Shown piece by piece: positions 1 to 16,346 of a DNA stretch of 64,000 bases. Position 1 is the first letter of the stretch, and each line of letters starts with the position of its first letter. Both the position numbers and the translations under genes were made by a program. The DNA is from Cruoricaptor ignavus (lineage in GTDB: Bacteria > Bacteroidota > Bacteroidia > Flavobacteriales > Weeksellaceae). The stretch spans positions 1-64,000 of the forward strand of contig NZ_FQYI01000006.1 of the NCBI RefSeq assembly GCF_900141665.1, written 5' to 3'. The notes under the pieces are model-generated. The model saw only the letters and a program-made list of their open reading frames with translations. It was not told the origin of the DNA and did not search any database.

Positions 1-387
1 CATATCTATCATTTCGGAAATCACGCCTTTGACGACATTCCGATCTTCATCATCTTTTAAATCTAGCCCGCAAAAAGCACTTCCATTAAAATCTGTATGC
101 AAATTGAGATAATAACTGGATGAAACAAGTATCGCCATTAAAGCTCTAAACTTTTTTGCTTCTGAGCCAAAATGCTTGTCTGCAATGTTAACAAACATTT
201 CCTCTCCGGCAGCCTCCCGTTCATCAGCTAGTTTCCTTAATGCAGATTTTGACTCGGACAATTCCCAAAGAATTATCTTCTGAAGCTCCTTATTTTTTTT
301 TAATTCATCAAATTGGCCGCTAAGTAAAACTTTTGCTAAAACCTTCCCTCCATCATTAATGTCTGTAGTCTCTACCAATTCGGATAA
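1..387 (-). pseudogene. TetR-type regulator, C-terminal part only (5' truncated, runs off left edge)
   Basis: An open minus-strand frame runs from about 387 to the left edge without a stop. It reads as the ligand-binding C-terminal half of a Bacteroidota TetR/AcrR-type regulator, with stretches such as LKKNKELQKIILWELSES and FCGLDLKDDEDR that resemble the last 120 residues of that family. The N-terminal HTH of about 60-70 residues is absent: upstream of residue S (382-384) the frame meets a stop at 388-390, exactly where a hipA-derived segment begins at 384. The gene was therefore cut by the rearrangement that placed the hipA copy here and cannot make a DNA-binding protein from this locus. 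The C-terminus lies outside the window. Family assignment is from pattern recognition only. Confidence 0.6.
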
Positions 388-825
388 TCACAAAGAATGG
401 CAACAACCACAAAAACAGATATTTTCGTATTTGCCGATTGGATTGGGATTAAAGAACCTACGCTTATCGGAGTCCTTACCGCACAGTTTGCAAAGGGGAG
501 AAAATCCTTTAGTTTCGGGTATGATAAACAATGGTTATTATCTCCTCATAAATTTTTATTAGATCCGGATATTCAGTTATTTTCAGGGAAACAGTTTCCT
601 AATGGAAAAGAAAATTTTGGTGTTTTTTTAGACAGTATGCCAGATACCTGGGGCAGAACTTTGATGAAGCGGAGAGCTTTACAAATTGCTAAAGAACTCG
701 ATGAAACTCCTAAAATTTTATACGATATTGATTATCTATTAGGTGTTTATGATGAAACCAGAATTGGAGCGCTTCGTTTCAAAACTGATTTAAACGGAGA
801 TTTTTTGGATAATAATCAAGATTAT
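384..825 (+). repeat. 442-bp direct repeat of 9116-9557 (hipA 5' region)
   Basis: The segment aligns without gaps to 9116-9557, from ATAATCACAAAG just before the start codon to AATCAAGATTAT inside the gene. About a dozen substitutions are visible, clustered in codons 2-5 and otherwise mostly synonymous. The breaks at both ends are sharp. The same orientation and about 8.7 kb of spacing make it a possible substrate for deletion of everything between the two copies. Confidence 0.85.
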
Positions 826-843
826 AAGCAAAAAGTGTACTGA
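397..843 (+). pseudogene. Truncated hipA copy (N-terminal third of a HipA-type kinase)
   Basis: The first 143 codons match the N-terminal domain of the intact hipA at 9129-10385 with only a handful of differences. The reading frame then leaves homology after the shared NNQDY and ends with KQKVY and a stop at 841-843. Everything needed for kinase activity (the GGARPKA loop, the SNTDDHLRNHGF catalytic motif and PAYDLNPS) is missing, and no hipB antitoxin precedes it. The 442-bp homology begins at the base corresponding to the end of hipB in the intact locus. It could still be translated as a 148-residue product, but no activity is expected. It is more likely a relic of recombination between two hip modules than a perfect recent duplication, because synonymous differences are present. 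Confidence 0.8.
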
Positions 844-912
844 TTTAGTTCAGAACTAAGATAGTTTTATTCATAATAAACAAAAAATACTCTCTAAGTA
901 AAAGTACACTTT
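832..912. repeat. 81-bp segment bounded by a perfect 10-bp inverted repeat
   Basis: AAAGTGTACT at 832-841 is repeated inverted as AGTACACTTT at 903-912. The interior is A+T-rich and holds a second palindrome, TTAGTTC-A-GAACTAA, at 845-859. It starts seven bases after the truncated hipA homology stops. The layout is what a tiny non-autonomous element or a recombination scar would leave, but no target-site duplication or transposase is visible, so its nature is unknown. Confidence 0.4.
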
Positions 913-1016
913 CTTTTGAAGACATACAGCAGCCAGTTAATACTCCGATCCAAGAAGAAACCAATGGAACTGTCAAACCAGTCACCAAGGGAACCTTCAT
1001 TTATATTGAGGAATAA
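849..1016 (+). pseudogene. Possible C-terminal remnant of an unknown protein
   Basis: After a stop at 846-848 an open frame without a start codon runs to a TAA at 1014-1016 and ends in KGTFIYIEE. The last 35 residues (from about 913) have protein-like composition, while the part inside the inverted repeat does not. It may be the tail of a gene whose body was lost in the rearrangement at 384-912. I do not recognise the family and cannot exclude chance. Confidence 0.25.
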
Positions 1017-1028
1017 ACCAACCACTCT

Positions 1029-1081
1029 AAAAATTGGCGGCAGACAAAAAAACATTTTTGAAAGTTCTTATTAATGCCGCC
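1029..1081 (-). terminator. Probable terminator of the six-gene operon
   Basis: Reading leftward, GGCGGCA (1075-1081) pairs with TGCCGCC (1036-1042). An inner CAAAAA/TTTTTG pairing shortens the loop, and AATTTTT follows. It lies 18 bp after the end of the DCC gene. The long loop makes it a weaker candidate than a classic hairpin. Confidence 0.45.
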
Positions 1082-1098
1082 CATTGACAAAGAATATT

Positions 1099-1440
1099 TT
1101 AGTTAAAAATTTTGGAGGATATAATATATCTATTTTTCGCAACAATTTTATATAAATAGTCGGTGATAGATATAGGAAGTAACAACCCAAAACTTATAAA
1201 ATAGTAAGGAAATTTAAAGTTTTTAAAAATATTGAAAACCGCCTGCGACCTGTTAAAGACCCTACCCCCGTTTACAAAATATATGGTTTGTAAGTCTATA
1301 AATTGAATCCCCCGCGCTCTAAGAATTTGGCGAGCTTCCTTACTCCTTACAGGAAGAGTAATAAATTTGTTATTGCTCCTTACACACCATTCTGAAAATT
1401 TAGTGCAGAAACCACACTTGTCATCATATATTATATTCAT
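1099..1440 (-). CDS. DCC-family (DUF393) thiol-disulfide oxidoreductase-like protein
   Basis: This 113-residue protein opens with a YDDKCGFC motif (residues 5-12). That matches the YDGxCxxC signature of the DUF393/DCC family, small thioredoxin-fold-like proteins presumed to exchange thiols and disulfides. A hydrophobic stretch near the C-terminus (YYFISFGLLLPISITDYLY) may sit at the membrane. It is the last gene of the leftward operon, one base after the outer-membrane gene. Genes of this family are often found beside HTTM membrane proteins, as here. Because the operon's secreted 80-residue peptide has a single cysteine, a role in its thiol chemistry is conceivable, but that is inference. Confidence 0.75.
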   Translation of the reverse strand: MNIIYDDKCGFCTKFSEWCVRSNNKFITLPVRSKEARQILRARGIQFIDLQTIYFVNGGRVFNRSQAVFNIFKNFKFPYYFISFGLLLPISITDYLYKIVAKNRYIISSKIFN

Positions 1441-1441
1441 A

Positions 1442-3502
1442 TTATTTCAGTCTATCTATGGTGTCATCATTGGTTTTCTCTTGATTACCCGGCTTGTAAG
1501 ATTTTCCTGTAACATTCCATTTTAAAATTACTCCAAAGCTTCTTACATCCGCGTATCTTTTTGTTCCATAAAAGTAGTTCGGAACCGTTGTTTCCTCCCA
1601 TGTCCTATTTGTTTTTAAAATATCATAAGCAAAAAACATAATGTTTAGATTTGAATTTATCTTTTTTGACAGGGTTATATCTAGTTTTTGATTTGTATAA
1701 TGTTTTATTAATCCGTCTTTATTCGTGGGATTAACCTCATAATTCACATTTAATTTAAAATCTCTCCCTATATTGATTATATTATTGGTTTCGAAAATTA
1801 ACGATGGGGTGCTTTTAGAAAGCATTCGGTTGTATTCTTTATCATCTATCTTCACATACTGCACTGCTGCAGATGCTTTTAAGATCCACTTCCTATTGAG
1901 AAAGGCATTATTATACTCCGTCCCCGCCTGGACTACATATAAATTTTCAAAATTTTTGTATGTTGAGTTTATCCTCCCATTCTCCAAATCATAGAAAGAG
2001 CTTGTAAAATCTTTCATATATCCTGCTAATGAAAATAATGACCATTTATTTTTCATTGTTTGATAGCTTACTGCAAAAAACTTCGTAGGGTTAATATCCG
2101 AGTCTCCCGATTCGTAGGTGATATCACTGCCCACCCGTTTAAAAGGGTTCAAATAATTATAGTTAGGGCGAAATATTTGCTTTCTAAAAGTAATATTATT
2201 TTCCCATTTGCCAGAAGATGTCCAATTATAACTTACATCATATAGTAAGTTTGTATAATCCTTCTTATTTTGATATTCTTTTATTCCTTCTCTGAAAGAG
2301 TAATTGATATAAGAGGTTTCTGAACGAAGGCCTATCCTTAATGAACGATTATTAGAAAATGAAAAAGATTGACTGATGTAGGATGCTAGCACTTTTTCAT
2401 TATATCTGAATGGGGCATCCAGTATAGAGTTTGTAAATATATCCTTATTATTATTTTCAACATTTATATTATGTAGTTTTATACCTGCACTTGTTTCTCC
2501 AAGCTTATTCTTGTTCTTATAATCTGCAAAAACAATTATTATCGGGGTCTTCGTGTCCACTTGTTGCTGATCTGTTTGCAACCCATTAAATGTTCCCAAA
2601 ATATCAGACTTCCCTTTATTAATAACTTGATGACTACCTATTTTCAGCGTATTATCATCATTAAAATTATGTTTGAGTGTTTCCGAAAATTGAAAAAAAT
2701 TACTCTTTGAATCTATTTCTATCCCCTTGTTGAAGGTTTCATTTTTACTTATTCCTACTTTATCAGAATTAGAGAGGGCATAGGTTCCTGAAAAATCTAT
2801 TATACTCTTCTCTCCTATATTTAAAGTTCCATTGATGAAAAATCGATGGCTTCTAAAGGTGTTATTGTCTTTATACCCTACTGATATTAAAGGATTTTCC
2901 TCGATAATCTGTTGAACTTCTGCCTTATTATTTGTAGGTGTATATCCAAAATTATAACTAGTATAGAATCTTAATTTTGTTCCGCTAAGCCCATAATTTA
3001 CCCCCGTTGAATTATAAAATTTAGTTTTTATCCCATTGGTTGTATTAATGCCCATTTGGTAACTTCCCTCTCTTTGAGTAAGTTGGACATTGATTACGGC
3101 ATATACTTCTGATCCATAAGAGGAGTCGGGTGTGGTATCAATAGTTATTTTTCTAATACTTTTAGGGTCTAGTGTCTTCAGATAACTTTCTAAGTCTGCA
3201 GCATCCATCTGCATCTGTATTCCATTCACCTCCAATATGGCTACTTTCCCCTGAACTTTTATTGGTGACCCGTCAGAAATGCTTAATAATGGAATTTGTT
3301 TCATTCCCTCCCAGACACTTGGTGTATCCTGGAAATCTTTCCCTACAACAGAAACTTCATATTTACCCTCTTTTTTTACAATTTTTGTCGTCTTTTCCGT
3401 CTTTATCACAACTTCTTCTATTGTCTTTTCTTTTTGATTAGACTGTCCGAAAGCGAGAGTGCCTGTTAGTATAAGTAGGGTAAATATGATATTTCTCTTC
3501 AT
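1442..3502 (-). CDS. Outer-membrane beta-barrel receptor-like protein (TonB-dependent receptor type)
   Basis: The protein has 686 residues. A signal peptide (about 1-19, ending LAFG) precedes a plug-like region to about residue 155, including EVNGIQMQ and a segment resembling the plug-domain stretch that ends in VINVQL. A long series of alternating aromatic/polar beta strands follows to the C-terminus. It resembles the outer-membrane beta-barrel family 3 proteins of Bacteroidota, which look like TonB-dependent receptors without the usual N-terminal carboxypeptidase-like domain. No SusD partner is present. Placed inside the peptide operon (23 bp after the preceding gene), it could export, import or sense the operon's product across the outer membrane, or serve as an immunity factor. 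The family is fairly sure; the substrate is unknown. Confidence 0.75.
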   Translation of the reverse strand: MKRNIIFTLLILTGTLAFGQSNQKEKTIEEVVIKTEKTTKIVKKEGKYEVSVVGKDFQDTPSVWEGMKQIPLLSISDGSPIKVQGKVAILEVNGIQMQMDAADLESYLKTLDPKSIRKITIDTTPDSSYGSEVYAVINVQLTQREGSYQMGINTTNGIKTKFYNSTGVNYGLSGTKLRFYTSYNFGYTPTNNKAEVQQIIEENPLISVGYKDNNTFRSHRFFINGTLNIGEKSIIDFSGTYALSNSDKVGISKNETFNKGIEIDSKSNFFQFSETLKHNFNDDNTLKIGSHQVINKGKSDILGTFNGLQTDQQQVDTKTPIIIVFADYKNKNKLGETSAGIKLHNINVENNNKDIFTNSILDAPFRYNEKVLASYISQSFSFSNNRSLRIGLRSETSYINYSFREGIKEYQNKKDYTNLLYDVSYNWTSSGKWENNITFRKQIFRPNYNYLNPFKRVGSDITYESGDSDINPTKFFAVSYQTMKNKWSLFSLAGYMKDFTSSFYDLENGRINSTYKNFENLYVVQAGTEYNNAFLNRKWILKASAAVQYVKIDDKEYNRMLSKSTPSLIFETNNIINIGRDFKLNVNYEVNPTNKDGLIKHYTNQKLDITLSKKINSNLNIMFFAYDILKTNRTWEETTVPNYFYGTKRYADVRSFGVILKWNVTGKSYKPGNQEKTNDDTIDRLK

Positions 3503-3525
3503 AGCTTTTCTTTTTTAAATTAATT

Positions 3526-3906
3526 CTACTTTTTGGCGGATTTAAATTCCTTATGAACCGAACTCATAGTCAGTCCTGTAATCTTATTTTTATCATCAAA
3601 TTTCATGATTACATCCATTGGTTGGTTTTCAAACCTTACATAGTAGTAATAAATTCCTTTTTCATCTTTGTTTATTTCTATAATACCTTTGTAGTCACCT
3701 AGTTTCTGTAATAGCAAATCTGTTTGCGAAAGTTTGCTTGCTGTAAGATCCTTTTTAAGATTATCACTAAAATAGGTGGTGACCTTATTATAATCTTTCT
3801 TTTGATAAAGATTATAGATACACTCTCTTCCTAACGCTTGTTGTGATTGTGCAAAACCAAATGCACTGAACATTGTAACGAATACAAATACTAATAAATG
3901 TCTCAT
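3526..3906 (-). CDS. Small secreted protein, DUF3887-like
   Basis: A 126-residue protein with a clear signal peptide (residues 1-19, ending SAFGFA). The mature part starts with a short helical segment and continues with an alpha/beta pattern (YYYYVRFENQPMDVIMKF) resembling DUF3887 or NTF2-like periplasmic domains. Its start codon overlaps the stop of the HTTM gene by four bases (ATGA), so the two are translationally coupled. It may assist maturation or bind the peptide in the periplasm; nothing in the sequence shows a catalytic site. The exact family is uncertain. Confidence 0.6.
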   Translation of the reverse strand: MRHLLVFVFVTMFSAFGFAQSQQALGRECIYNLYQKKDYNKVTTYFSDNLKKDLTASKLSQTDLLLQKLGDYKGIIEINKDEKGIYYYYVRFENQPMDVIMKFDDKNKITGLTMSSVHKEFKSAKK

Positions 3907-4763
3907 AATTTTTTATTGTTTATTGTTATATTAAAGTTGTAAAAATTGGTTAAATTCCAAATTATCATCATTGCAGAAAAGAAATATAAGTTTAAGAATA
4001 CCGCTATGCCTAAGTGCATTGATATCGTCAGAAACAGCCATATATTTCTTGTTTGTTTTATCCATATAAAAAGTGGATATGCCATTTCTATCACTATTGT
4101 TGCCCAGCCTATAATTATCAGTAGCGTTGGATTATTTCCTAAAAAGGAAAAATCAAATTGGAAATCCTGGTTAGCAAATGGAAGATGTATCGCCTTCCAA
4201 ATACTTTCTCCATTCCACCAGTTAAACCCTGTTACTTTTCCTAAGCCGGACAAAAAATATAAAATACTTAAATGGACTTGAAATAACCTCCTATATGGGG
4301 TTTTCTCCATATTATTGCAAGGAATTAAAATCAGGTAGAATAGTGACATACTCATAAAAAAGTCTATCCCATAGGTGTAAAATCCGCTACCTTTTACCAT
4401 TGCAATTTGCATTACAAGTAATATAAAGGCTACTATCCTTGTTCTTACTCCTGTTACTAACAGTACTCCTAATAAAATATATAGCATTTTGAATCCTATA
4501 AGAACTTGATCCTCTTGGATACCAAAAGTCTTTAAATAGGAAATTATCTTAGGTAGCGTTAACAGATAGTTAGGGACAAATACATCCATTATATCGCTAG
4601 GAACAAAACCCTTGGTTGAATATAGGTTATTAAAATCTGGAAGTATAGAGATTAAATGTAGTATTAGTAATACTCCTATAGATTGTCTAAAAAAGGTGAC
4701 CCACCTCTGATTTTTTAATTCTTGAAAAAAGAAGTTTTGTAATTTATGGGTTAGTGCTATCAT
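3903..4763 (-). CDS. HTTM-domain integral membrane protein, SdpB-like
   Basis: A 286-residue polytopic protein with about seven or eight membrane segments. Characteristic stretches are GFKMLYILLGVLLVTGVRTR, GIDFFMSMSLFYLIL, SGLGKVTGFNWWNG and a late EMAYPLFIW followed by SMHLGIAVF. These fit the HTTM family (horizontally transferred transmembrane, related to vitamin K-dependent carboxylase). Bacillus SdpB, which acts with SdpA in making the SdpC-derived toxin peptide, belongs to it. It overlaps the downstream secreted protein by four bases and the upstream anchored protein by four bases. That pairing, plus the peptide gene at the head of the operon, gives the SdpABC-like reading. HTTM membership is well supported; the reaction is unknown. 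Confidence 0.7.
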   Translation of the reverse strand: MIALTHKLQNFFFQELKNQRWVTFFRQSIGVLLILHLISILPDFNNLYSTKGFVPSDIMDVFVPNYLLTLPKIISYLKTFGIQEDQVLIGFKMLYILLGVLLVTGVRTRIVAFILLVMQIAMVKGSGFYTYGIDFFMSMSLFYLILIPCNNMEKTPYRRLFQVHLSILYFLSGLGKVTGFNWWNGESIWKAIHLPFANQDFQFDFSFLGNNPTLLIIIGWATIVIEMAYPLFIWIKQTRNIWLFLTISMHLGIAVFLNLYFFSAMMIIWNLTNFYNFNITINNKKL

Positions 4764-5317
4764 ACCTCATATTTTTTTATCATTGCTATTCGCGGTGCAG
4801 ATTGCTTATTGAAATTTTTGATCGATGGATAATCAAACAGATACATTTTCAGTTCTACCTTACTGCTTTTCGGGTGGTCTTTTTTAATTTTTATCGCCAC
4901 CTGTTTCATTACGATATCCAAATACCGGTCATGTCTCTCATCAATTTTGTCAAGCTTGTCTAAAAACATATGGTTCATACATGACAATCTCAATTTTCCT
5001 TCTTTCGAGTTAGTCGGGATTTCATTCAATTGTTTTATTATATTTCCTTTTTCATCATAGATTCGAATATTAAAAACGAAGTCGCTTGATACATTTGGTC
5101 CGAAAAATCCATATCCTGTTTCAAAACCGGTATATTTTCCAAAAAAATCAATAGGTGCCCATTTACTAAAAGCTTCCATTTTGTCTAAAAACTTAGGTCT
5201 ATCTTTTTTGTAAAAAGAATAATAACTTTCTAAATCTGACAAAATAGAAAAAGAACACATGATAATAAATATCACACTAACTATTATTACCGCACATAGT
5301 TTTTGTAATTTATTCAT
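4760..5317 (-). CDS. Membrane-anchored HTTM partner protein, SdpA-like by position
   Basis: A 185-residue protein with one N-terminal membrane segment (about residues 7-27) and a soluble, presumably extracytoplasmic domain. It contains YGFFGPN (69-75), a motif of the FF-x-PN kind often seen in proteins encoded directly upstream of HTTM genes. The gene overlaps the HTTM gene by four bases and follows the peptide gene by 60 bp. Size, single anchor and position match SdpA of the Bacillus Sdp system, which is needed with SdpB to produce the active peptide. I cannot claim sequence homology to SdpA by eye. Confidence 0.55.
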   Translation of the reverse strand: MNKLQKLCAVIIVSVIFIIMCSFSILSDLESYYSFYKKDRPKFLDKMEAFSKWAPIDFFGKYTGFETGYGFFGPNVSSDFVFNIRIYDEKGNIIKQLNEIPTNSKEGKLRLSCMNHMFLDKLDKIDERHDRYLDIVMKQVAIKIKKDHPKSSKVELKMYLFDYPSIKNFNKQSAPRIAMIKKYEV

Positions 5318-5377
5318 GATTTACCTTTTTAAAATACTGAGCGGAATTTAATATTACACCGCTCAGTATGATTGTTT

Positions 5378-5620
5378 TTAGTATTTGGACAGAATATTAT
5401 CCATTTTAGCTCCTGATTCTGTTTCCACTACATTATAGATATGTTCTGTGAAAAAGTCCATACATAAATGTTTGGTAGCCACACTAGCGCCTTCAGAATC
5501 CATATCCATTAAACTTTGCACTGATACTTCTTGAGCGCTTACCTGTTTGGTGTTTGCCTTTGTAAATGACATCGCTGTCAAACCCACTACCGCTACTAGC
5601 GGAAAAAATAGTTTTTTCAT
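5378..5620 (-). CDS. Secreted 80-residue peptide precursor, function unknown
   Basis: The first gene of the operon encodes 80 residues. A Sec-type signal peptide (MKK followed by a hydrophobic core, to about residue 22) precedes a mature part of about 58 residues, acidic in its first half (QSLMDMDSEG). A single cysteine lies at 53 (HLCMDFF) and the C-terminus is ILSKY. It sits 60 bp before the SdpA-like gene and about 185 bp after the lux-type promoter. Small size, secretion signal and neighbours suggest a toxin, bacteriocin or signal precursor, analogous in place to SdpC. Unlike the SdpC peptide it lacks a cysteine pair and a strongly hydrophobic mature core. I do not recognise homologues. 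Confidence 0.6.
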   Translation of the reverse strand: MKKLFFPLVAVVGLTAMSFTKANTKQVSAQEVSVQSLMDMDSEGASVATKHLCMDFFTEHIYNVVETESGAKMDNILSKY

Positions 5621-5805
5621 TTTTTTAACTTTTTTGATTTTTTTGTTTAATTATTGCTCCATTTGGTCTTGAGCTTCCGGTGACCTTATGTTAATTTTTC
5701 GTGTTCACATAGTCTCACTATTTACTTTTTTCTTTGAGTGTAACTCTCGCAATCTGTAGCTACTGGAATATTTTTTAGATAAATCTTTATTGTTTTTTTC
5801 TGATT

Positions 5806-5889
5806 CAAAAATGGAGTTTTATGCTTTCATTTTTGCTACACTTTGGTGTAGTTCTATGCTGTCGCCTGAAAAACTACACTTTGGTGTAG
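5806..5889 (-). promoter_or_regulatory. Promoter of the peptide operon with two CTACAC-N4-GTGTAG boxes
   Basis: Reading leftward, a -7-like element CATTTTTG (5806-5813) is preceded by two identical palindromes CTACACTTTGGTGTAG at 5836-5851 and 5874-5889, whose starts are 38 bp apart. The nearer box is centred 34 bp upstream of the -7 element, near -42 from the likely start. No TTTG-type -33 element is present between box and -7, as expected for an activator-dependent promoter. The farther box lies inside the last codons of the acyltransferase gene. The leader to the peptide gene would be about 180 nt. Confidence 0.7.
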
Positions 5890-6498
5890 TGTAGCCCAAG
5901 CTCTGGTCGAATTCATATTTTGTGGAAGCAAATGACTATTGTTATCAAGAAATTTTTTAAGCCCTGTATAGGTAAGCAGGACAGGAATAGTCTCAGAGCC
6001 TAAATAGTCTATCGAATCGGCAAGGGTAATTGCTTCAATCCCTAATAACTTTAGTACTCTTAGAAGCTTTGCGTCGCATTCTGCCAATGCAAAGCAGTCT
6101 TCGTTTTGGCAAACTTCATTTATAGCACAAACCATTAAGGTTTTAAAAACATTGAATCCCGTTTTATCGATCCCTTTTTTTATGGCGAATCTTCCAATGT
6201 GCCAAACATTATATTTATTATCTTGCCTAAGACCATCAATGTTGATGTTAAATAACTTCTGCATTGGTAGAACCTCTTTTCCATTCCATTTTGAAACCCT
6301 GATGGAACCTACTATTGAATGCTGGTCCATCGAAACAAATATTTTTGAATTATCCAGCTTCAACTCTTCAAGATATATTTCATCAACCTCTTTATCAAGT
6401 AATCGGTTGTTTATAAGATGATGGCTGTAATTTTCCTCTACAACAAATTTTGCCAATTCAAAGAGGTTTTGCCTGTCTAAAGAATAATAGTTGAGCAT
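5854..6498 (-). CDS. GNAT-fold N-acyltransferase, candidate signal synthase
   Basis: The 214-residue protein shows GNAT acyltransferase features. A beta strand IFVSMDQHSIVGSIRV (53-68) carries the usual GxxR-like turn. WHIGRFAIKKG (99-109) resembles the E-x-SRFAV region of LuxI-type and FeeM-type N-acyl amino acid or homoserine-lactone synthases. A helical segment and a late strand follow. It is divergent from a LuxR-type regulator and is itself preceded by a pair of lux-type boxes, the usual layout of an autoinducer synthase. The N-terminal arginine and tryptophan pattern of true LuxI is not evident, so a different acylated product is likely. It could also be a plain acetyltransferase. Its last codons contain a second-promoter box. 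Confidence 0.55.
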   Translation of the reverse strand: MLNYYSLDRQNLFELAKFVVEENYSHHLINNRLLDKEVDEIYLEELKLDNSKIFVSMDQHSIVGSIRVSKWNGKEVLPMQKLFNINIDGLRQDNKYNVWHIGRFAIKKGIDKTGFNVFKTLMVCAINEVCQNEDCFALAECDAKLLRVLKLLGIEAITLADSIDYLGSETIPVLLTYTGLKKFLDNNSHLLPQNMNSTRAWATLHQSVVFQATA

Positions 6499-6530
6499 AT
6501 AGTAATATTTTTAAATCGTTAAATTTTTAT

Positions 6531-6618
6531 CAAAAATATTTCTCTATCATGTTGTTATATGCTACACTTTTGTGTAGATTTGTTTAATTAAGCTAAATAC
6601 TACACTGTTGTGTAGTAT
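6531..6618 (-). promoter_or_regulatory. Acyltransferase promoter with paired lux-type boxes; luxR promoter on the opposite strand
   Basis: Leftward, TATTTTTG (6531-6538) is a TAnnTTTG -7 element. CTACACTTTTGTGTAG (6562-6577) is centred 35 bp upstream of it. A longer palindrome with 9-bp arms, ATACTACAC-TGTT-GTGTAGTAT (6597-6618), follows with the same 38-bp repeat distance seen at 5836/5874. Rightward, TTG (6552-6554), 20 bp, then TAGATTTG (6575-6582) make a plausible luxR promoter that overlaps the first box, while the second box is close to its expected start. A bound regulator would thus activate the synthase gene and could block its own. Confidence 0.7.
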
Positions 6619-6634
6619 TCTGAATTTTAGAGTT

Positions 6635-7393
6635 ATGGAAGAAAAAAATCAATTCTTTTCAGATAAAAACACGGTAAAGTCTATTTCCGAAAAAGATGCT
6701 GTACAAACCGGCAATTATTTAGAAATAGTGAAGGCATTTGCAAGAGTCACCTATATGAGTATCTATGTAATAGATTATCAAAATAAAGGTTTTGAATATG
6801 TATCCGATAATCCTCTTTTTCTTTGCGGTCTGACTCCTGACGAAGTACAGGAGTTAGGATATGGCTTTTATTTCCGGAATGTAAAACAGGAAGATTTACC
6901 GCTGTTACTAAAAATCAACGAGGTAGGATTTGATTTTTACGAAAAGTTGCCGTTAGAGGATAGGAAAAACTACACAATTTCTTATGACTTCCATATTATA
7001 AATGAAAAGAAAAACTCCATACTCATCAACCATAAGCTAACACCGATGTTTCTTACCGAGGATGGCAAAATATGGAAGGCGATGTGCATCGTGGCATTAT
7101 CCCCAAATCATACTGCAGGAAATATAACCATCTCTAAACAGGGGTCGGAAACATTTTGGAAATACAATTTGGAAAGGAAGAAATGGGTTGAGGAGGCGAA
7201 GGCTAAACTATCGGATAGAGAAATTGAGATATTAAGGCTTTACGCAAGAGGTCTTACGATTACTGAAATTGCAGAACAGATATTTGTATCGGCCGATACC
7301 GTTAAGTTCCATCGGAGGAAACTGTTTGAAAAAATAGGCGTGCAAAATATTACGGAAGCACTGGCATATGCTACTAACAATAAATTGTTATAA
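6635..7393 (+). CDS. LuxR-type transcriptional regulator with N-terminal PAS-like domain
   Basis: From the ATG at 6635 the product has 252 residues. Residues about 30-150 form a PAS-like sensor (YVIDYQNKGFEYVSDNPLFL and later beta strands). Residues about 188-250 form a GerE/LuxR helix-turn-helix (LSDREIEILRLYARGLTITE, then VSADTVKFHRRKLFEKI). An upstream TTG at 6608 in the same frame is unlikely to be used because it lies inside the operator palindrome. PAS-LuxR regulators are common in Bacteroidota; most have no known ligand. The divergent acyltransferase and the boxes at three promoters make this the likely binder of CTACAC-N4-GTGTAG. No receiver domain is present. Confidence 0.8.
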   Translation: MEEKNQFFSDKNTVKSISEKDAVQTGNYLEIVKAFARVTYMSIYVIDYQNKGFEYVSDNPLFLCGLTPDEVQELGYGFYFRNVKQEDLPLLLKINEVGFDFYEKLPLEDRKNYTISYDFHIINEKKNSILINHKLTPMFLTEDGKIWKAMCIVALSPNHTAGNITISKQGSETFWKYNLERKKWVEEAKAKLSDREIEILRLYARGLTITEIAEQIFVSADTVKFHRRKLFEKIGVQNITEALAYATNNKLL

Positions 7394-7394
7394 A

Positions 7395-7420
7395 AAAGCA
7401 GCCTTCTTAGGGACTGCTTT
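7395..7420. terminator. Bidirectional terminator between luxR-type gene and thiF-type gene
   Basis: AAAGCAG (7395-7401) pairs with CTGCTTT (7414-7420) around a 12-base loop, with A and T runs outside. It lies between two convergent genes whose stops are 33 bp apart. Confidence 0.7.
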
Positions 7421-7426
7421 CATAGT

Positions 7427-8176
7427 TTAATTTGATATTGAATTGATATAAAACTCGGGAAACTTTTTATATTTTTTTTGCGTGACTATATTGAACATTA
7501 TGTGGGTACACATACCTGCCACTATCCACGAAGCAACGGCTAATTGTGGGGGCGGTAAATTTTCTTTTTCCGATTTATAATCCTCGATAATTTTCTCTAA
7601 CCAAATATTTGGGTTTCCCCAAAATCTTGTGTAGCCAGAAACATACTCCACCATCTTAAGCTCGTTGAAGTTTTCTCCGGAAGTTAAGCTATCCAGTTTC
7701 AAACTGTCGGGAGTAATTACCGTTACAAGTCCTCCCCATCCAAGATTATATGGATGCAGTACGGTAATTCCCTTTTTTTGACAAAGCTCGTCAAAAACTA
7801 AAGGCACATCACTCGTAAAGTCTAATGCATTTATTGCAATCTGACAATTATCAACTATTTCATCTATATTTTCAGGAGTAATAAACTCGGAATGGAATTT
7901 AATATCCGCAGCTGGGTTTATAGCCTTTAAACGGTTGCAAAGTGCTTCAGCCTTATTTTCGGATATATTTTCTTCCGTATAATTTTGGCGATTTAGATTG
8001 GAAAGCTCCACTACATCTCCATCTACAACAGTTATGTCCTCAAATCCAAATCTTAGTGCGCATTCGGCAATATTGCTTCCTATACCACTCCCGGCAAGTA
8101 ATATCGGTGTTGTTTTTATTTTATCTTGCTCCTCGCCAGTTATATATAACCTATTTCTGGAATATCTTTCGTCCAT
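7427..8176 (-). CDS. ThiF/HesA/MoeB-type E1-like adenylyltransferase
   Basis: A 249-residue protein with the E1 superfamily nucleotide-binding core. GSGIGSN (29-35) is the glycine-rich loop, VDGDVVELSNLNRQ (51-64) supplies the aspartate and the NLNRQ motif that contacts ATP, and NKAEAL follows (74-79). Such enzymes adenylate the C-terminal carboxylate of a small protein or peptide (ThiS, MoaD, the MccA peptide of microcin C7) or activate other carboxylates. No CxxC zinc pair or rhodanese domain is seen. It has its own lux-type box, so it is predicted to be co-expressed with the peptide operon. Its substrate could be that peptide or the signal precursor; this is inference. Confidence 0.75.
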   Translation of the reverse strand: MDERYSRNRLYITGEEQDKIKTTPILLAGSGIGSNIAECALRFGFEDITVVDGDVVELSNLNRQNYTEENISENKAEALCNRLKAINPAADIKFHSEFITPENIDEIVDNCQIAINALDFTSDVPLVFDELCQKKGITVLHPYNLGWGGLVTVITPDSLKLDSLTSGENFNELKMVEYVSGYTRFWGNPNIWLEKIIEDYKSEKENLPPPQLAVASWIVAGMCTHIMFNIVTQKKYKKFPEFYINSISN

Positions 8177-8189
8177 TGTAATTTTTCTT

Positions 8190-8235
8190 CAAAATTATGG
8201 AGCTTAGGAAGTTTAACTGCTACACAAAAGTGTAG
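8190..8235 (-). promoter_or_regulatory. Promoter of the ThiF-type gene with a single lux-type box
   Basis: TAATTTTG (8190-8197, leftward) is a perfect TAnnTTTG element 13 bp before the start codon. CTACACAAAAGTGTAG (8220-8235) is centred 34 bp upstream of it, the same geometry as at 5806 and 6531, again without a -33 TTTG. No second box is found 38 bp away. Confidence 0.7.
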
Positions 8236-8779
8236 TTCTTTCCTGCAAAATAAGTTTTCATAAACGACCGTTTTTTGAAACACTATTTTTTTTATTCAAA
8301 CATTCATTATTTTAGTTCTCGGGTTGCTCCTCAGCAGAGCCCGATTCCGTTTCGGTTGGCGGGTACAAATTTCAAATGAAAAAACTATATTTACAAACTG
8401 TCAAAAAAGTAGACCACTTACCATCTGTATTTAAACTTATTTGACGATTTAGTAATTGAATTTTTGGCAACAATAAGTATGAATTTTTCAGAATCGTGGA
8501 TTTTTTCGGCTCCTTGGTTTTGTGTAGGCACCTCCCCTTTTCAGTATTGTTCAAAAATATTAATTTCTTTTAGTTTTTGTTGTTAAATGATATGGAAAAG
8601 TGGCCAAGAAAAGCGGCTGCCTTTGGGATGGCTTGCTGTCCATTTTTCCACATCACCGGTGATAAGCCTCCCAGCTCTTGTAAAATTAACCGAAAGTATT
8701 GCTGTCTTTTTTATACTAGGATCGGACGTTTTTCAAGTCGAACTACTCCAAGATTTTAAAATCCTTATAAAAAAATTAA
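8236..8779. other. Gene-free stretch with one imperfect hairpin
   Basis: Short frames here (for example 8372-8554 and 8587-8784) lack protein-like composition and conserved starts. A bulged hairpin, TCGGGTTGCT against AGCA-GAG-CCCGA (about 8319-8344), stands out. A region around 8400 (TGTCAAAAAAGTAGACC) looks like eroded insertion-sequence DNA, but no terminal repeats can be shown. Confidence 0.4.
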
Positions 8780-8784
8780 TTTGA

Positions 8785-8814
8785 TTGTTATTATAAACAT
8801 TTTTAGTAATTTTG
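8785..8814 (+). promoter_or_regulatory. Promoter of the hipBA-type operon
   Basis: TTG (8785-8787), a 19-bp spacer and TAATTTTG (8807-8814) match the Bacteroidota -33/-7 consensus. Transcription would start near 8818, which favours the ATG at 8832 over upstream in-frame starts for hipB. Confidence 0.65.
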
Positions 8815-8831
8815 TGTATAATATAAGACAA

Positions 8832-9119
8832 ATGAAAGTCAAGAAACAAATTATACTGCCCAAATATGAATCCACCTTACAGCAGATGGGTGAGAATTTT
8901 AAACTTGCCCGGAAAAGGAGAAATCTTTCAACGATACAAGTCGCCGAGCGGGCCGGAATTTCCAGGTCAACACTTTACCTTATTGAAAAGGGAGATGCAA
9001 AGGTTTCTATGGGGGCATATTTCAATGTGTTAAGAGTATTAGGATTGCAGGATGATTTTCTGAAATTAGCATCAGATGATGAACTCGGACGCAGATTACA
9101 GGATTTAGAACTTTTATAA
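8832..9119 (+). CDS. hipB: HipB-like XRE-family antitoxin/repressor
   Basis: The 95-residue protein carries an XRE helix-turn-helix (about residues 20-73: LARKRRNLSTIQVAERAGIS, then STLYLIEKGDAKVS). It ends 9 bp before hipA. HipB proteins bind operator DNA as dimers, repress their own operon and hold HipA inactive. The ATG at 8832 is chosen because the -7 element at 8807-8814 leaves no room for earlier starts. The intact pair contrasts with the antitoxin-less hipA fragment at 397. Confidence 0.8.
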   Translation: MKVKKQIILPKYESTLQQMGENFKLARKRRNLSTIQVAERAGISRSTLYLIEKGDAKVSMGAYFNVLRVLGLQDDFLKLASDDELGRRLQDLELL

Positions 9120-9128
9120 TCACAAAGA

Positions 9129-10385
9129 ATGGCTGCATCAATAAAAACAGATATTTTCGTGTTTGCCGATTGGATGGGTATTAAAGAACCTACGCTTATC
9201 GGAGTCCTTACAGCACAGTTCGCAAAGGGGAGAAAATCCTTTAGTTTCGGGTATGATAAACAATGGTTATTATCTCCTCATAAATTTTTATTAGATCCGG
9301 ATATTCAGTTATTTTCAGGGAAACAGTTTCCTAATGGAAAAGAAAATTTTGGTGTTTTTTTAGACAGTATGCCAGATACCTGGGGCAGAACTTTGATGAA
9401 GCGGAGAGCTTTACAAATTGCTAAAGAACTCGATGAAACCCCTAAAATTTTATACGATATTGATTATCTATTAGGTGTTTATGATGAAACCAGAATTGGA
9501 GCGCTTCGTTTTAAAACTGATTTAAACGGAGATTTTTTGGATAATAATCAAGATTATCCAACTCCGCCCTGGACATCTGTTAGAGAATTGCAATATGCCG
9601 TATCTCAATTGGAAAACGAAGACGAAAAGCACATTAAACAATGGTTGGAAATTCTCATTGCTCCGGGTTCTTCCCTCGGCGGTGCAAGACCAAAAGCTAA
9701 TATCTTGGATGAAAAGAACGAACTTTGGATTGCAAAATTTCCTTCAAAAAATGACACCATCAACAAAGGTGCTTGGGAATTTTTGGCTTATCGGTTGGCC
9801 CTGGATTGCGGTATTGAAATGTCTGAAAGCAAAATAGAGAAAATAAACCACCCTCATCATACTTTTTTTACCAAAAGATTTGACAGAAAAGGAAGGCAAA
9901 GAATCCACTTTTCTTCTGCAATGACGATGACAGGAAATAATGAAGAAAAATTGAAAGAACACACAGCGAGTTATCTTGATATTGCAGAGTTTCTCATGAA
10001 CAACGGTACAGATATAGACAACAACCTCAAACAACTCTGGCGAAGAATTGTCTTTAATATTGCCATTTCCAACACCGATGATCATTTGAGAAACCACGGA
10101 TTTATCCTAACTGAAAACGGCTGGATATTGTCTCCGGCTTACGACCTTAACCCTTCTGTTGATAAAAATGGCTTATCACTCAACATCAACTATGATGAAA
10201 ATGACATAGATATAGAATTAGCCAAAAGCGTTGGAGAATACTTCAGATTAAATAATACCGACATGAATCAAATCATTGATGAGGTTTTCGGTTCCGTAAA
10301 AAACTGGAGAAATGTCGCTACAGAAATAGGCATTTCAAGAGGCGAACAGGAATTGATGGCAAAGGCTTTTAAAAACTTCAAATAA
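9129..10385 (+). CDS. hipA: HipA-family serine/threonine kinase toxin
   Basis: A full-length 418-residue HipA. The N-terminal HipA_N-type domain (to about residue 140) is followed by the kinase-like core. The GGARPKA loop is at 184-190 (the GVQPK-like segment of E. coli HipA), the catalytic SNTDDHLRNHGF at 314-325, and the metal-binding PAYDLNPS at 336-343. E. coli HipA phosphorylates glutamyl-tRNA synthetase and causes growth arrest; targets of this branch are unknown. It forms an operon with the HipB-like gene. Its first 143 codons are duplicated at 397-825. All key residues appear intact, so the toxin should be functional. Confidence 0.85.
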   Translation: MAASIKTDIFVFADWMGIKEPTLIGVLTAQFAKGRKSFSFGYDKQWLLSPHKFLLDPDIQLFSGKQFPNGKENFGVFLDSMPDTWGRTLMKRRALQIAKELDETPKILYDIDYLLGVYDETRIGALRFKTDLNGDFLDNNQDYPTPPWTSVRELQYAVSQLENEDEKHIKQWLEILIAPGSSLGGARPKANILDEKNELWIAKFPSKNDTINKGAWEFLAYRLALDCGIEMSESKIEKINHPHHTFFTKRFDRKGRQRIHFSSAMTMTGNNEEKLKEHTASYLDIAEFLMNNGTDIDNNLKQLWRRIVFNIAISNTDDHLRNHGFILTENGWILSPAYDLNPSVDKNGLSLNINYDENDIDIELAKSVGEYFRLNNTDMNQIIDEVFGSVKNWRNVATEIGISRGEQELMAKAFKNFK

Positions 10386-10466
10386 TCAAATGAAACGATT
10401 TTGTAATTGCCACCATTCATTTCAGCCGTCATTATAATCCGTGATAAATTTTTGGTTTTTTTTACT

Positions 10467-11093
10467 TTAAAGCTCGATGTTTAAAAAGTGAAAAAGTTTA
10501 TAAATTTCAGCAACGCTCATTTCTTCATTCTCTTTATTAAATTCTCCTATTTTTTCAGCGCTTTTAATAGCGGTGGCTAAATTTGATTTAAGCCTATTGT
10601 ATATATTCTTTCTGACAAAGAAATCTTCTTTTTTCTCGTATTCAGGAAAATGCTTTTTTAATTCTTTATGAACCTGCGAACAGCCTTTGTAGGGCTTAGC
10701 AGTTTCTTGAAAATGTAAAAGAAACCAATATTCTAAACATGGGTTATTGATCAATATCTCAAGTTTATCATTAGTATATTTTTTAACAAATTCTTCTTTC
10801 AATCTCAAAAATTTTTTCAATGGCGTTTCTCCTCCTTTACCTGCGGAGTTTTCTTGTGCTAATAGCACATCCAAATCAACTATCCAGATAACTTTATCAT
10901 AGACTTGCAACTTTTCTTTTAAATCATAGAAGCAGGTTTGAATATCTTTTCGAGAAACCAAATCAGGCTTAATATCAAAATATTTTGGCTGCTCAATACG
11001 AGCCAATGCTGTGAGATACCATTTTTCGGTTTCACCATCTACAATAATTGCAGATTTTTTCTTTATTTCTCTATGGTTAATCCTCCTTGCCAT
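10467..11093 (-). CDS. RloB-like protein, partner of the AAA15 ATPase (AbiLii-like)
   Basis: From the ATG at 11093 (MARRINHREI) the product has about 208 residues. VDGETEKWYL near the N-terminus, WIVDLDV in the middle and NPCLEYWFLLHF further on are the signature of RloB, a TOPRIM-like nuclease-related family. The gene overlaps the end of the ATPase gene by 17 bp, so the two are coupled. A longer in-frame start at 11132 is less likely because it would overlap by 56 bp and add a segment unlike the family. RloA/RloB pairs and the lactococcal AbiL system have this two-gene design and act against phages, so an abortive-infection role is plausible. Confidence 0.75.
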   Translation of the reverse strand: MARRINHREIKKKSAIIVDGETEKWYLTALARIEQPKYFDIKPDLVSRKDIQTCFYDLKEKLQVYDKVIWIVDLDVLLAQENSAGKGGETPLKKFLRLKEEFVKKYTNDKLEILINNPCLEYWFLLHFQETAKPYKGCSQVHKELKKHFPEYEKKEDFFVRKNIYNRLKSNLATAIKSAEKIGEFNKENEEMSVAEIYKLFHFLNIEL

Positions 11094-12384
11094 TTCCATT
11101 AATGTAAGGGTCAGACAATTCGGGAACCGCACCTAATTTTCCAATTTTATACGCATTGTAAACAGAACTCGTGTTTCTGATAACCGAAGTATCAAAATCA
11201 ACTAAGCTGTATAAATCCGTAGAACCATTTTCCTGTTTTTCTGCAAACCAAACAGCATCAGGGCGGAAAAGGTCTTTTTCCATCAAAAATTCACGATAAT
11301 GCGAAGTGCAAATTATTTGCGAATTTTTGGAATTTACTAAATATAGCAGTAGAAAGTGCTTTAGTAAGTCCGGATGCAGGGAGGATTCTATTTCATCGAT
11401 CATTAATCCTGCTGAAGAATGAATGAGACTCGATAAAATTCCACTGAATTCATAATATCTCTTGGTTCCTTCTGATTCCATATCAAAAGGTAAATTGTAG
11501 GTATGTCCTTCAACCGTGTGCTTGAACATCAATTGCTGGGCTTCAATTTCGTTGGCCCCCCGGACAACATTTTCTTCAAAAATCTCTTTAAATTTATTGG
11601 GAACCAATGAACGCAATTCTTCTGTAACTTGTATTTTTACATTTTCTATGCTCACATCAGAAATTTTGAAATCAGCTTTCTGAAGCAATTCAATGATACT
11701 GGGTTTTAAAAAGGAATTATTCTTTAACAGGTTATTGGTGAACCCCATTAAGTCGGTATTTGGAACTATAATATCCCCCAAATATTGAGTGAAAAAATGT
11801 ACGGCATTTTGTAGATCCTTAGATTCCAAATTTGTTTTTAAATACCCACTTAATACAGAATTATTCCACAGAGTATTGGCTTCCAATATCTCCCTATCTG
11901 TTTTGCTGATTTTTACAGTAGATCCAAATGTAATTACTGTCGTTTCTGAATTAAGATTTGAAACCCTTTCAAAAACTAAGGATTTTCTAGTTTTAAGGTT
12001 GTATAACCTCTCGCTATGAACCGCTTTTCTGGTTAAGCTAATTTCATAAAGATATTTCGTCTGATCTGAATAAAATTCAACTTCAAATCGTGATAACTTT
12101 TCCAACGCATTTTCTTGAAATAAAAAAGGCATAAAATTAATTTCTTGATTTTTAACTCGTGGAGCTGCTAAAACAAAAGCTCTTAAAAATGTAATTGCCT
12201 TTATAATATTAGTTTTTCCTGACGCATTGGCACCATAAATAAAAGCCATTTTCAATAAACGGTCTTTATTATTCGGCTTTACAATATAATAGTCTTCCAA
12301 ATGGGTAGAATTATCTGCTTCCATAGATAGTATAACACGATCTTTTATCGAACCAAAATTTTCTACAGTGAATTTTGAAATCAT
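11077..12384 (-). CDS. AAA15-family ATPase (RloA/AbiLi-like)
   Basis: The 435-residue protein begins with the SMC/OLD-like ABC ATPase start (FTVENFGSIKDRV). Walker A is YGANASGKTN (50-59), and a late Walker B segment reads GLMIDEIESSLHP with catalytic glutamate and the D-loop-like histidine-proline. The middle is a long insertion typical of AAA15. It overlaps the RloB-like gene and appears to be the first gene of a two-gene operon. With RloB it resembles AbiL or RloAB anti-phage modules. Alternative names for the same family are OLD-like or ATP-binding protein; a defence role is inference from family and setting in a mobile element. Confidence 0.8.
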   Translation of the reverse strand: MISKFTVENFGSIKDRVILSMEADNSTHLEDYYIVKPNNKDRLLKMAFIYGANASGKTNIIKAITFLRAFVLAAPRVKNQEINFMPFLFQENALEKLSRFEVEFYSDQTKYLYEISLTRKAVHSERLYNLKTRKSLVFERVSNLNSETTVITFGSTVKISKTDREILEANTLWNNSVLSGYLKTNLESKDLQNAVHFFTQYLGDIIVPNTDLMGFTNNLLKNNSFLKPSIIELLQKADFKISDVSIENVKIQVTEELRSLVPNKFKEIFEENVVRGANEIEAQQLMFKHTVEGHTYNLPFDMESEGTKRYYEFSGILSSLIHSSAGLMIDEIESSLHPDLLKHFLLLYLVNSKNSQIICTSHYREFLMEKDLFRPDAVWFAEKQENGSTDLYSLVDFDTSVIRNTSSVYNAYKIGKLGAVPELSDPYINGNGKED

Positions 12385-12486
12385 TTTAAGTTTATTATTT
12401 GTAATTCATTTACAAATATAAGTATTAAAATCCTAAAAACAACATTTTAAATGTGTTATTGACTAAATATTTAAGACAACTTAATA

Positions 12487-13325
12487 TTAATTTTCCCTAC
12501 ACCACCACTCATTCAAATCATTACAATTGTGGTAAATCAGGGAGCAATCTTCCACATCTGAGTAAAGGTTTTTGATTTTTGTTTTTAGAGAAATTCCATT
12601 GTTGTCGTTGTCCAAAAACAGTAAGATCTTATCATATCCCCTTAAAATTTCTTCGGCTTTGAAAACATCGCCGTAGAATTTAAAATCAAATAATCACAAC
12701 TCGGTGTATTGTCTTGTTCTAAATTTCGGAAGGTTAAATAATCAAAGAAACCTTCAAAAAGAGCTATTTCTTTATGTTTTATTTCCGATTGAATCAGTGT
12801 AATATCCTTTTTCCCAAGGCAAATTTTTGAATAAGCATTCCTGATTTCAAAGCCTTTGGAATTATTTTGAAAACCAATTCCAAAGCCTTGTTTTCTGCCA
12901 AGTTGGTAATGGACTTCTTTTACTAAATCTTTTTGTTCAAGGACTTTGCGGGATTTCAGATAATCCAACAATGCCGGATGTTTAACTTCCTGAACGTTGA
13001 GAATTTGATAATTTTCCGGTTTGGGAGTGAGTGTTTTTGGAGTAAAATTCTGGTTGAGAACCACAAATTGAGACAGGTATTTCAAAGCGTCCGAAACAGA
13101 ACATTTTTTTAACTGCTGAACGATGGAAATTACATCATAGCTCTTGCCGGTTCCGAAGTCGAATGCTATTTTCTTCTCAAAATCTACACAAAGGCTGGGT
13201 TTTTCTTCTTCGCGATCCAGGGCGAAATAAAATGCCGTCTTTGAATGTTTTTTCGCCGGAAATTTTCCAAAGGACTCCAAAACCGTACGGATGTCGACTT
13301 TTTCTTTGATGTTTTTACAATTCAT
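12487..13325 (-). pseudogene. TOPRIM primase-like gene with a frameshift
   Basis: The N-terminal frame (from MNCKNIKEK at 13325) gives a CHC2-like N-terminal region and reads through LFEGFFDYLTFRNLEQ to LILNSTAMFSK, then ends early in PKKF. The next frame continues the expected protein as KAEEILRGYDKILLFLDNDNNG, the TOPRIM metal-binding segment, and ends in WWCREN at 12487. Adding one A to the AAA opposite 12658-12660 joins the two frames perfectly. The intact protein would be about 280 residues, the size of the primase-like proteins carried by Bacteroidota mobilizable elements. It is either a genuine inactivation or a sequencing error in a homopolymer. An earlier start at 13358 exists but is not needed. 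Confidence 0.75.
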
Positions 13326-13350
13326 TTTTTTTGTTTTTAGAGCAATTGAG

Positions 13351-13718
13351 TTATCCACATTTTCCTTTTAAATAAAAAAAGCTTTTTTATTACTTTTATA
13401 ATACTTTTAATGATTCTCGTTATCGCCTTTCAGCAAGGCGATAGAGCCACTTTTGGCAGGAGTGCAATTCCGAAAAATCAAGAGTGCAATTCCGAAAAAA
13501 GGCTGTTTTTCGCAGGAGTGCAATTCCGAATTGATTTTTTAATTTTGGCCTAATTTCCGATTTTATCCACAATTTCATGGGGTTATCCACAGGTTTTTTC
13601 GGTTCTTCAATCGGGACACGAGTGCAATTCCGAAAAGAGGTCGGTAAAAATTTTGATTTTAACATTTCCTTAAGTTTTAAGAGTGCAATTCCGAAAAGCA
13701 CAGGAGTGCAATTCCGAA
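13351..13718. other. oriV: Plasmid-type replication origin (DnaA boxes, A+T-rich tract, iterons)
   Basis: Three perfect DnaA boxes TTATCCACA lie at 13351-13359, 13563-13571 and 13583-13591. A very A+T-rich tract follows the first one (about 13370-13420). Six iterons lie at 13460-13718, immediately beside the Rep gene. This is the classic arrangement of an iteron-controlled plasmid origin, here inside a chromosomally integrated element. Confidence 0.8.
13460..13718 (+). repeat. Six iterons GAGTGCAATTCCGAA
   Basis: Perfect 15-bp copies start at 13460, 13482, 13516, 13620, 13681 and 13704, all in the same orientation, most preceded by A or CAG. The spacing is 22, 34, 104, 61 and 23 bp; the largest gap holds the two DnaA boxes. 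They are the presumed binding sites of the Rep protein encoded just to the right. Confidence 0.9.
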
Positions 13719-13719
13719 T

Positions 13720-14817
13720 TCATACAATAACGGGATACCCGTTCGGTAATAATTGTCCCATTTTGGTCTCCCCATAAATTTCAATAATGAAGCCCTGCAT
13801 CTGTTGCAAGAACGCTTTTCCCTGCCACTCTGTTGACTTGATATTGTTCTGCCGGCTGATCCTGACAAATCGTTTAAAAGCTTTCTCGATAAGCTCCCTG
13901 GTTTGTGCAATGTTTTGGTATTGGTAGGAAAACCGCTGCATTTCCTCTGTTTTTAGTCCATAGCGCTTACGGAAGTAAAGCAGCCTTCTGTTGACAGACT
14001 TTTTATCCTGCGAAATTTCAATGCTCTTTTCGGCCATAGGGTTTGGATTGGCAAAAGGAATTATCGTAATGAAATCGCCTTTATAATGGTAAAGAAACGA
14101 GCGGTCGTTGTATTGGTTAAACTTGAGCTTTGCGGGTTTTAAAAATTTGGAGCAGAAGTCGTTGGCGGTTCTATAGTTTAATCCGAATTTTTTATTTAAG
14201 GTGGAAAGTCTTAGCGGGACGCCTTCCTTGGGAAGTTTCGTTAACCATATCGCCAGAAGGATGTGCTTATTATTCCGGATATGGTACACCAGATTATACA
14301 GAACATAGTTATATTCAGGAATGACCAAGAGCTTTTTGAGCCAGTAGCTGCTTATGAGAAAGCGGGTGTATCCCCTCTGGTCGTAGGCGGGCGTGGAGAT
14401 CAACCCCCCGAAAGTTTTGATTTCTTTACCCTGCCGGTTTGTAGATTTATACCAGCCCATCTTAAACCTGGCGAGGAATTCATAAGCCTCTACCACCTGT
14501 TTCGTGGAACCGCTAGGAGATATTTTATGGTTCGGGATTTTAAGGGATACAAAAATATTGTTTTCGGTTTCAAATTCATCCTCAAACAATGAAAGCTGCT
14601 TAGGCCTGTCCTGCGGGCGAAACTGTTCGCTGCCGATTATAGAAACGATATTGAATATAACCCGTAAGGCATTGATGGGAATATCCGCCGCTTCCGCCCC
14701 TTCAAAAAGGAAATCATCTGCAAAAGAATTGCCCAACCGAATTTTTTCTGGCTCGGTCGTTTTGGGCGATTCAAATTGCTTTCGGATGATTTTTGAATCC
14801 TTCTCTGGCACGGTCAT
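13720..14817 (-). CDS. Plasmid replication initiator (RepB/Rep_3-like)
   Basis: A 365-residue basic protein. The central part (LISSYWLKKLLVIPEYNYVL, then NNKHILLAIWLTKLPKEGVP) looks like winged-helix domains of iteron-binding initiators. A helix-rich C-terminal tail contains RRLLYFRKRYGLKTEE. The gene ends two bases from the last iteron, so the origin lies downstream of its own initiator. Initiators of this class bind iterons as monomers to open the origin and repress copy number as dimers. No obvious frameshift is present, so the replicon may still be active after excision. The exact Rep family is inferred from context as much as from sequence. Confidence 0.7.
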   Translation of the reverse strand: MTVPEKDSKIIRKQFESPKTTEPEKIRLGNSFADDFLFEGAEAADIPINALRVIFNIVSIIGSEQFRPQDRPKQLSLFEDEFETENNIFVSLKIPNHKISPSGSTKQVVEAYEFLARFKMGWYKSTNRQGKEIKTFGGLISTPAYDQRGYTRFLISSYWLKKLLVIPEYNYVLYNLVYHIRNNKHILLAIWLTKLPKEGVPLRLSTLNKKFGLNYRTANDFCSKFLKPAKLKFNQYNDRSFLYHYKGDFITIIPFANPNPMAEKSIEISQDKKSVNRRLLYFRKRYGLKTEEMQRFSYQYQNIAQTRELIEKAFKRFVRISRQNNIKSTEWQGKAFLQQMQGFIIEIYGETKMGQLLPNGYPVIV

Positions 14818-14855
14818 TCTGCTATCTCGATATAGAATAATGTCTATTATAATTT

Positions 14856-15590: not shown

Positions 15591-15593
15591 CGC

Positions 15594-16129: not shown

Positions 16130-16233
16130 TTATGTTTTTTATTTTTAGCTTATTCCGTTCCTCAGTATCTTAACTTTAGCTCCTATATTACAAAATAGTG
16201 TTAATTGTCTAAAAAAAGATACTTTCATGTTAT

Positions 16234-16290
16234 TTTGCATTGTAATATATTATTTTAACTATATTTGCATTGTACAACATTGCAAATATA
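16234..16290. promoter_or_regulatory. Palindromic operator overlapping two opposed promoters
   Basis: TATATTTGCA (16260-16269) and TGCAAATATA (16281-16290) are perfect inverted 10-mers around TTGTACAACAT. Each arm begins with TATATTTG, a -7 element: the left one reads right toward the repressor gene at 16347 and the right one reads left toward the DUF3853 genes. An extra half-site TTTGCATTGTA at 16234-16244 repeats the sequence at 16264-16274 at a 30-bp distance. This looks like a repressor switch. Confidence 0.7.
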
Positions 16291-16346
16291 TAGATTTTAA
16301 TCTATGTAAATAAAGCTTTTTAAACAAAAATACAATCTTACATATC

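Follow-up and report, generated by a model that had tools for sequence, protein, structure and literature searches.

In Bacteroidota, N-acyl-cyclolysines (ACLs) reportedly arise from acylation of lysine and ATP-dependent cyclization by the enzyme AclA, and the receptor AclR is said to sense ACLs and to drive co-located operons as well as the ACLs' own synthesis. The discovery of these compounds in Bacteroidota is attributed to Linares-Otoya et al. in a passage of a 2026 review (PMC13419125), which cites the work as Nature 2025, 646:423 (doi 10.1038/s41586-025-09418-9). Searches of the literature for FeeM or LuxR quorum sensing in Bacteroidetes, or for SdpB, found nothing useful. Another described system for comparison is LuxI/LuxR with its class II lux box at -42.5.

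Here, we compare with these systems a cassette of Cruoricaptor ignavus, situated in the first 64,000 nucleotides of contig NZ_FQYI01000006.1, the stretch of DNA analyzed and hereafter called the window. As judged from the sequence, which fits in every visible part, the cassette is a new instance of the published ACL signaling system. The features of an ACL cassette that a sequence can reveal are present, namely, an AclA-type enzyme, a FeeM/LuxI-fold acyltransferase next to it, a neighboring LuxR-type regulator, and, alongside, a secreted-product operon with a signal-peptide protein and genes of membrane/export type, together with a promoter layout of the autoinduction type, and no contradictory feature was seen. 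With LuxI/LuxR, the cassette shares a palindromic operator overlapping the -33/-35 region and an activator gene divergent from the synthase gene in a positive-feedback layout, but box sequence, receptor sensor domain, synthase family, and predicted signal chemistry all differ, and the promoters use the Bacteroidota -7 element TAnnTTTG instead of a -10 element. The components of the cassette are as follows.

1099 to 1440, minus strand: DCC1-like thiol-disulfide oxidoreductase (domain match), last cargo gene
1442 to 3502, minus strand: outer membrane beta-barrel protein (OMP_b-brl_3; domain match), cargo
3526 to 3906, minus strand: DUF3887 secreted protein (domain match), cargo
3903 to 4763, minus strand: 286-aa multipass membrane protein, with weak SdpB/DoxX similarity
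4760 to 5317, minus strand: 185-aa membrane-anchored protein, SdpA-like solely by position
5378 to 5620, minus strand: 80-aa secreted peptide with a signal peptide, weakly DUF6520-like (below cut-off), first cargo gene
5806 to 5813, minus strand: -7 element CATTTTTG of the cargo promoter, 22-bp gap to the box
5836 to 5851, unstranded (promoter reads on the minus strand): promoter-proximal AclR-type box of the cargo promoter, exact palindrome, kept 3' of the synthase gene in homologues
5854 to 6498, minus strand: FeeM/LuxI-fold N-acyltransferase, the signal synthase, 214 aa (PF21926 and fold)
5874 to 5889, unstranded: distal twin box of the cargo promoter, exact palindrome, 38 bp upstream of the proximal box and within the 3' end of the synthase gene
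6531 to 6538, minus strand: -7 element TATTTTTG of the synthase promoter, 23-bp gap to the box
6562 to 6577, unstranded: promoter-proximal box of the synthase promoter, exact palindrome, kept in homologues
6600 to 6615, unstranded: distal twin box of the synthase promoter, exact palindrome, 38 bp upstream of the proximal box
6635 to 7393, plus strand: LuxR-type receptor/activator, AclR-like, with a GerE HTH (PF00196, 62 bits)
7427 to 8176, minus strand: E1-like ThiF-family adenylating enzyme, AclA orthologue (sequence and structure match to 9EGB)
8190 to 8197, minus strand: -7 element TAATTTTG of the thiF/aclA promoter, 22-bp gap to the box
8220 to 8235, unstranded: lone box of the thiF/aclA promoter, exact palindrome, kept in homologues

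The ThiF-family enzyme matched 9EGB, an entry titled "AclA from Tenacibaculum discolor in complex with substrate," both in sequence (E 1e-107) and in structure, where the model aligned over its full length of 249 residues with 64% identity, Z 40.2, and an rmsd of 1.0, with the next-best E1 far below (Z 25.7). Adenylation fold, GxGxxG, the NRQ motif, K75, and D119 are shared with the E1-like proteins ThiF, MoeB, MccB, and TcdA, but the enzyme belongs to a separate family, of which AclA is the solved member. A gene for a ubiquitin-like partner was not seen in the cassette. An early guess that the enzyme makes an azlactone or a lactone was dropped upon the match to AclA. Because of this orthology, ligand and operator of the cassette would agree with those of the ACL system.

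The acyltransferase passed the curated cut-off of the FeeM family PF21926 (34 bits versus 27), and its predicted structure (pLDDT 89) had as its best neighbor the N-acyl amino acid synthase FeeM (2G0B; Z 16.3 and rmsd 2.8 over 169 residues). The two proteins are only 10% identical, and the synthase differs further in that its gene stands in a cassette together with genes for a regulator and an E1-like enzyme. The neighbors that followed were LasI (Z 15.6), RpaI (Z 15.5), BjaI, and TofI; since the top rows lie within about one Z unit, the fold assigns the synthase to the FeeM/LuxI group and no closer. A sequence search of the PDB with the synthase profile gave no match; its structural relatives came to light only in the fold comparison. 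In the regulator, whose gene is divergent from that of the acyltransferase, only the GerE/HTH end scored in Pfam, with no match to the N-terminal domain; its profile matched 3CLO over residues 71 to 252. Its own genome encodes no close paralogue.

An earlier note on this DNA had described five CTACAC-N4-GTGTAG boxes with class II lux-box geometry at three promoters and had called the same spacing at three independent promoters very unlikely by chance. All five were recovered from the sequence as exact palindromes, each at the coordinates given there. Allowing up to two mismatches, the window held 6 matches, while shuffles averaged 0.52 and none reached 6, and the 2.23-Mb genome has six exact copies, of which five are inside the cassette. 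The single exact copy elsewhere (C21:7199) has a GC-rich spacer, GCCG, and no TAnnTTTR at the correct position on either strand. The genome-wide count that the earlier note had proposed thus found copies that are not scattered over the genome, and its judgment on chance stands. At up to two mismatches, 47 matches were counted genome-wide, below the 74 of a reversed-pattern control, which argues against a hidden genome-wide regulon; a genome-wide repeat was rejected on the same count. The combination of box, 22-bp gap, and TANNTTTR, again with up to two mismatches, gave 3 matches in this genome, all on the same strand.

The three promoters, those of the synthase gene, thiF/aclA, and the cargo operon, all read on the minus strand. 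Remeasured from box center to -7 center, the spacings were 34 bp (8190), 35 bp (6531), and 34 bp (5806), in agreement with the earlier values; the cargo -7 element deviates from the consensus. To follow this geometry into homologues, we drew on synthase relatives, which were present in 43 of 296 genomes sampled from the source family and in 12 of 395 genomes of a phylum sample. A scan of named genomes yielded 123 relatives, in Chryseobacterium, Kaistella, Riemerella, Flavobacterium, Tenacibaculum, Aquimarina, Kordia, Zobellia, Hymenobacter, Saccharicrinis, and others. In the inspected loci, the synthase nearly always adjoins the regulator (55 to 75% identical), ThiF (53 to 76% identical) is mostly nearby, and all three genes stand together in most loci. 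The spacing was surveyed in 80 named loci plus the window (81 in total) by searching for a box with a gap of 21 to 23 bp to TANNTTTR. This arrangement occurs at 73 of 81 synthase promoters and 45 of 61 thiF promoters and, past the synthase gene, in 43 of 81 downstream regions. Shuffles averaged between 0 and 0.04 such cases, and reversed controls gave none; when all gaps up to 60 bp were tallied, the histogram had its main peak at 22. The cargo promoter of the window was missed in this survey because of its -7 element. The earlier note had named loss of the spacing in homologous loci as a refutation; at synthase, thiF, and synthase-downstream regions, the spacing is kept. Shuffles, genome count, and homologous-locus controls together led us to reject chance palindromes. 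A recognizable box with a -7 element is missing at 16 of the 61 thiF promoters and at 38 of the 81 synthase-downstream regions, and thus the regulon varies among species.

A search restricted to gaps of 22 and 23 bp collected 152 distinct promoters from the window and related loci, which take in related species and are not independent events: 151 have a gap of 22 bp, and one, the synthase promoter of the window, has 23 bp. Half of them (76/152) carry a twin box 38 bp upstream. The 22-bp spacer is conserved in length and hardly in sequence, with an information content mostly below 0.3 bit, a combination that common descent by itself would hardly account for. The absence of a -33 TTTG, pointed out for the three promoters in the earlier note, extends to the whole set, with TTTG found 17 to 22 nt upstream of the -7 element in 0 of 152; some box spacers contain TTTG, at the wrong distance for a -33 element. 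Two marks of a class II layout, an operator at a fixed distance overlapping the -33 region and a missing -33 element, are present. The reading of the boxes as lux-box-like class II operators of the adjacent LuxR-type activator remains the best one, with genome count and homologue spacing in agreement. In 24 of 56 distinct synthase genes, counted manually, the downstream box also encodes the last residues and the stop codon of the synthase, as in C TAC ACT TTT GTG TAG (Y-T-F-V-stop); the C-terminus Y-[TSP]-[FLI]-V-stop is found at loci L088, L092, L105, L123, L136, and others.

Regulators occurring without a synthase provide a link between boxes and their putative reader. Several Chryseobacterium-group genomes without a synthase encode such solo regulators (62 to 66% identical), whose divergent promoter has the same boxes with the 22-bp gap kept. 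Likewise, a 105-kb replicon of Riemerella anatipestifer, typed as a plasmid (NZ_CP072187; L037), carries regulator and ThiF with the boxes kept and no synthase nearby. Two paralogues (L191 and L192), 45% identical, adjoin CTATAC-N4-GTATAG boxes and have DTVKFHRRK or DTVKFHRKK as the recognition helix, versus STIKFHRSK in the regulator. Since box and recognition helix differ together in the paralogues and the solos keep the boxes, these comparisons point to the regulator as the predicted protein reading the boxes. The paralogous LuxR family is a candidate for a second circuit with its own box. Upstream of the paralogues' own genes, an element resembling a -7 was also observed, again 22 bp from the box.

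We consider it highly probable that the boxes serve as operators of the regulator encoded at 6635 to 7393, a predicted ACL receptor, which would activate synthase, thiF, and cargo as a positive-feedback switch; the five palindromes very probably are ACL receptor operators. The FeeM/LuxI-fold enzyme would acylate an amino acid, which in the published system is lysine; the AclA orthologue would then activate the carboxylate with ATP and cyclize the acylated product. A dimer of the ligand-bound regulator would bind the boxes, centered near -42 from the expected start, and substitute for the missing -33 contact, so that synthase, thiF, and cargo operons would all be activated in positive feedback and the secreted-peptide operon would be switched on at high cell density. 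Boxes, geometry and its conservation, gene families, and folds are shown here, and from there we infer that the receptor binds the boxes, which ligand it senses, in which direction it regulates, and that cell density matters.

Some LuxR-family proteins act as repressors, and boxes near -42, which overlap the expected position of a -33 element, might block RNA polymerase until the ligand frees them; the distal synthase box, about 20 bp ahead of the luxR start codon, would also suit such a role. However, no promoter of the 152 has the -33 TTTG, and the spacing is constant to one base pair. This would be expected of a polymerase contact, where a repressor site would tolerate shifts. The geometry thus supports activation over repression, and we regard a repressor as improbable. 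Even less credible is a genuine acyl-homoserine-lactone (AHL) system of the LuxI/LuxR type, despite the presence of LasI, RpaI, and BjaI among the top structural neighbors of the synthase and of a WHIGRFA motif that recalls the LuxI motif WExSRFxV. The synthase passes the FeeM family cut-off and had no match to the Pfam autoinducer synthase (LuxI) family up to E 0.1, the Pfam LuxR autoinducer-binding domain was not matched by the regulator, and the AclA orthologue, conserved along with them, is not known to take part in making AHLs; membership in this class was rejected on the unmatched synthase and sensor domains. Finally, perfect inverted repeats, some of them at gene ends, could be a dispersed repeat or a terminator-like element kept by descent only. 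This reading has a negligible probability, considering the one other copy in the genome and the spacer that keeps its length while its sequence varies, as found in the homologue and 152-promoter surveys. We thus retain activation by a predicted ACL receptor.

The cargo probably placed under this control differs among relatives. The 80-aa peptide has a homologue in Riemerella columbina (L136; 64%). The 286-aa protein scored 33.3 bits against the SdpB model TIGR04033, far under the cut-off of 178.4, and membership in a sporulation-delaying peptide (SDP) operon was rejected; there is at most a resemblance. In relatives, the third type of promoter precedes class I lanthipeptide precursors with LanB and LanC-like enzymes, NHLP leader peptides with their exporter, radical-SAM peptide maturases resembling cyclophane formers, or SdpB-like operons, and some loci have different or unrecognized cargo. 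The system likely serves to control secreted peptides of the antimicrobial type according to cell density. In the synthase-less loci L177, L187, L194, and L202, the solo regulator faces a protein of about 127 aa with one membrane segment, a homologue of which (L052:12305-12685) is encoded in another species inside an SdpB-like ACL-linked operon. This gene facing the solo receptors, which lies behind a promoter of the box-bearing type, is possibly an immunity gene. We tentatively suggest, at rather less than even confidence, that a strict class II operator replaces the -33 contact throughout the phylum and that many receptor-only Chryseobacterium may eavesdrop to switch on immunity.

The entire cassette is flanked by a 442-bp direct repeat, 97% identical (window positions 384 to 825 and 9116 to 9557), with a truncated hipA start in the left copy and an intact hipBA pair at the right, as if the cassette had entered by recombination at hipBA. 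Positions 1 to 20000, cassette included, have 32 to 37% GC, and positions 20000 to 64000 have 44 to 48%. A tyrosine integrase (17200 to 18414) and an RloB and AAA ATPase pair (10467 to 12384) are located near the cassette. Low GC content and these neighbors indicate that the region is probably a genomic island.

Relative to the ACL pathway, three features may be new: the strict operator geometry, the box that doubles as coding sequence, and the receptors that occur without a synthase. The same may hold for the abundance of lanthipeptide, NHLP, radical-SAM peptide, and SdpB-like operons among the cargo. Sequence alone yields the cis-regulatory signature of a major quorum-sensing system of Bacteroidota. 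This signature flags operons under predicted ACL control in any genome, here often antimicrobial-peptide-like, and also predicts bacteria that would only listen, without signaling themselves.
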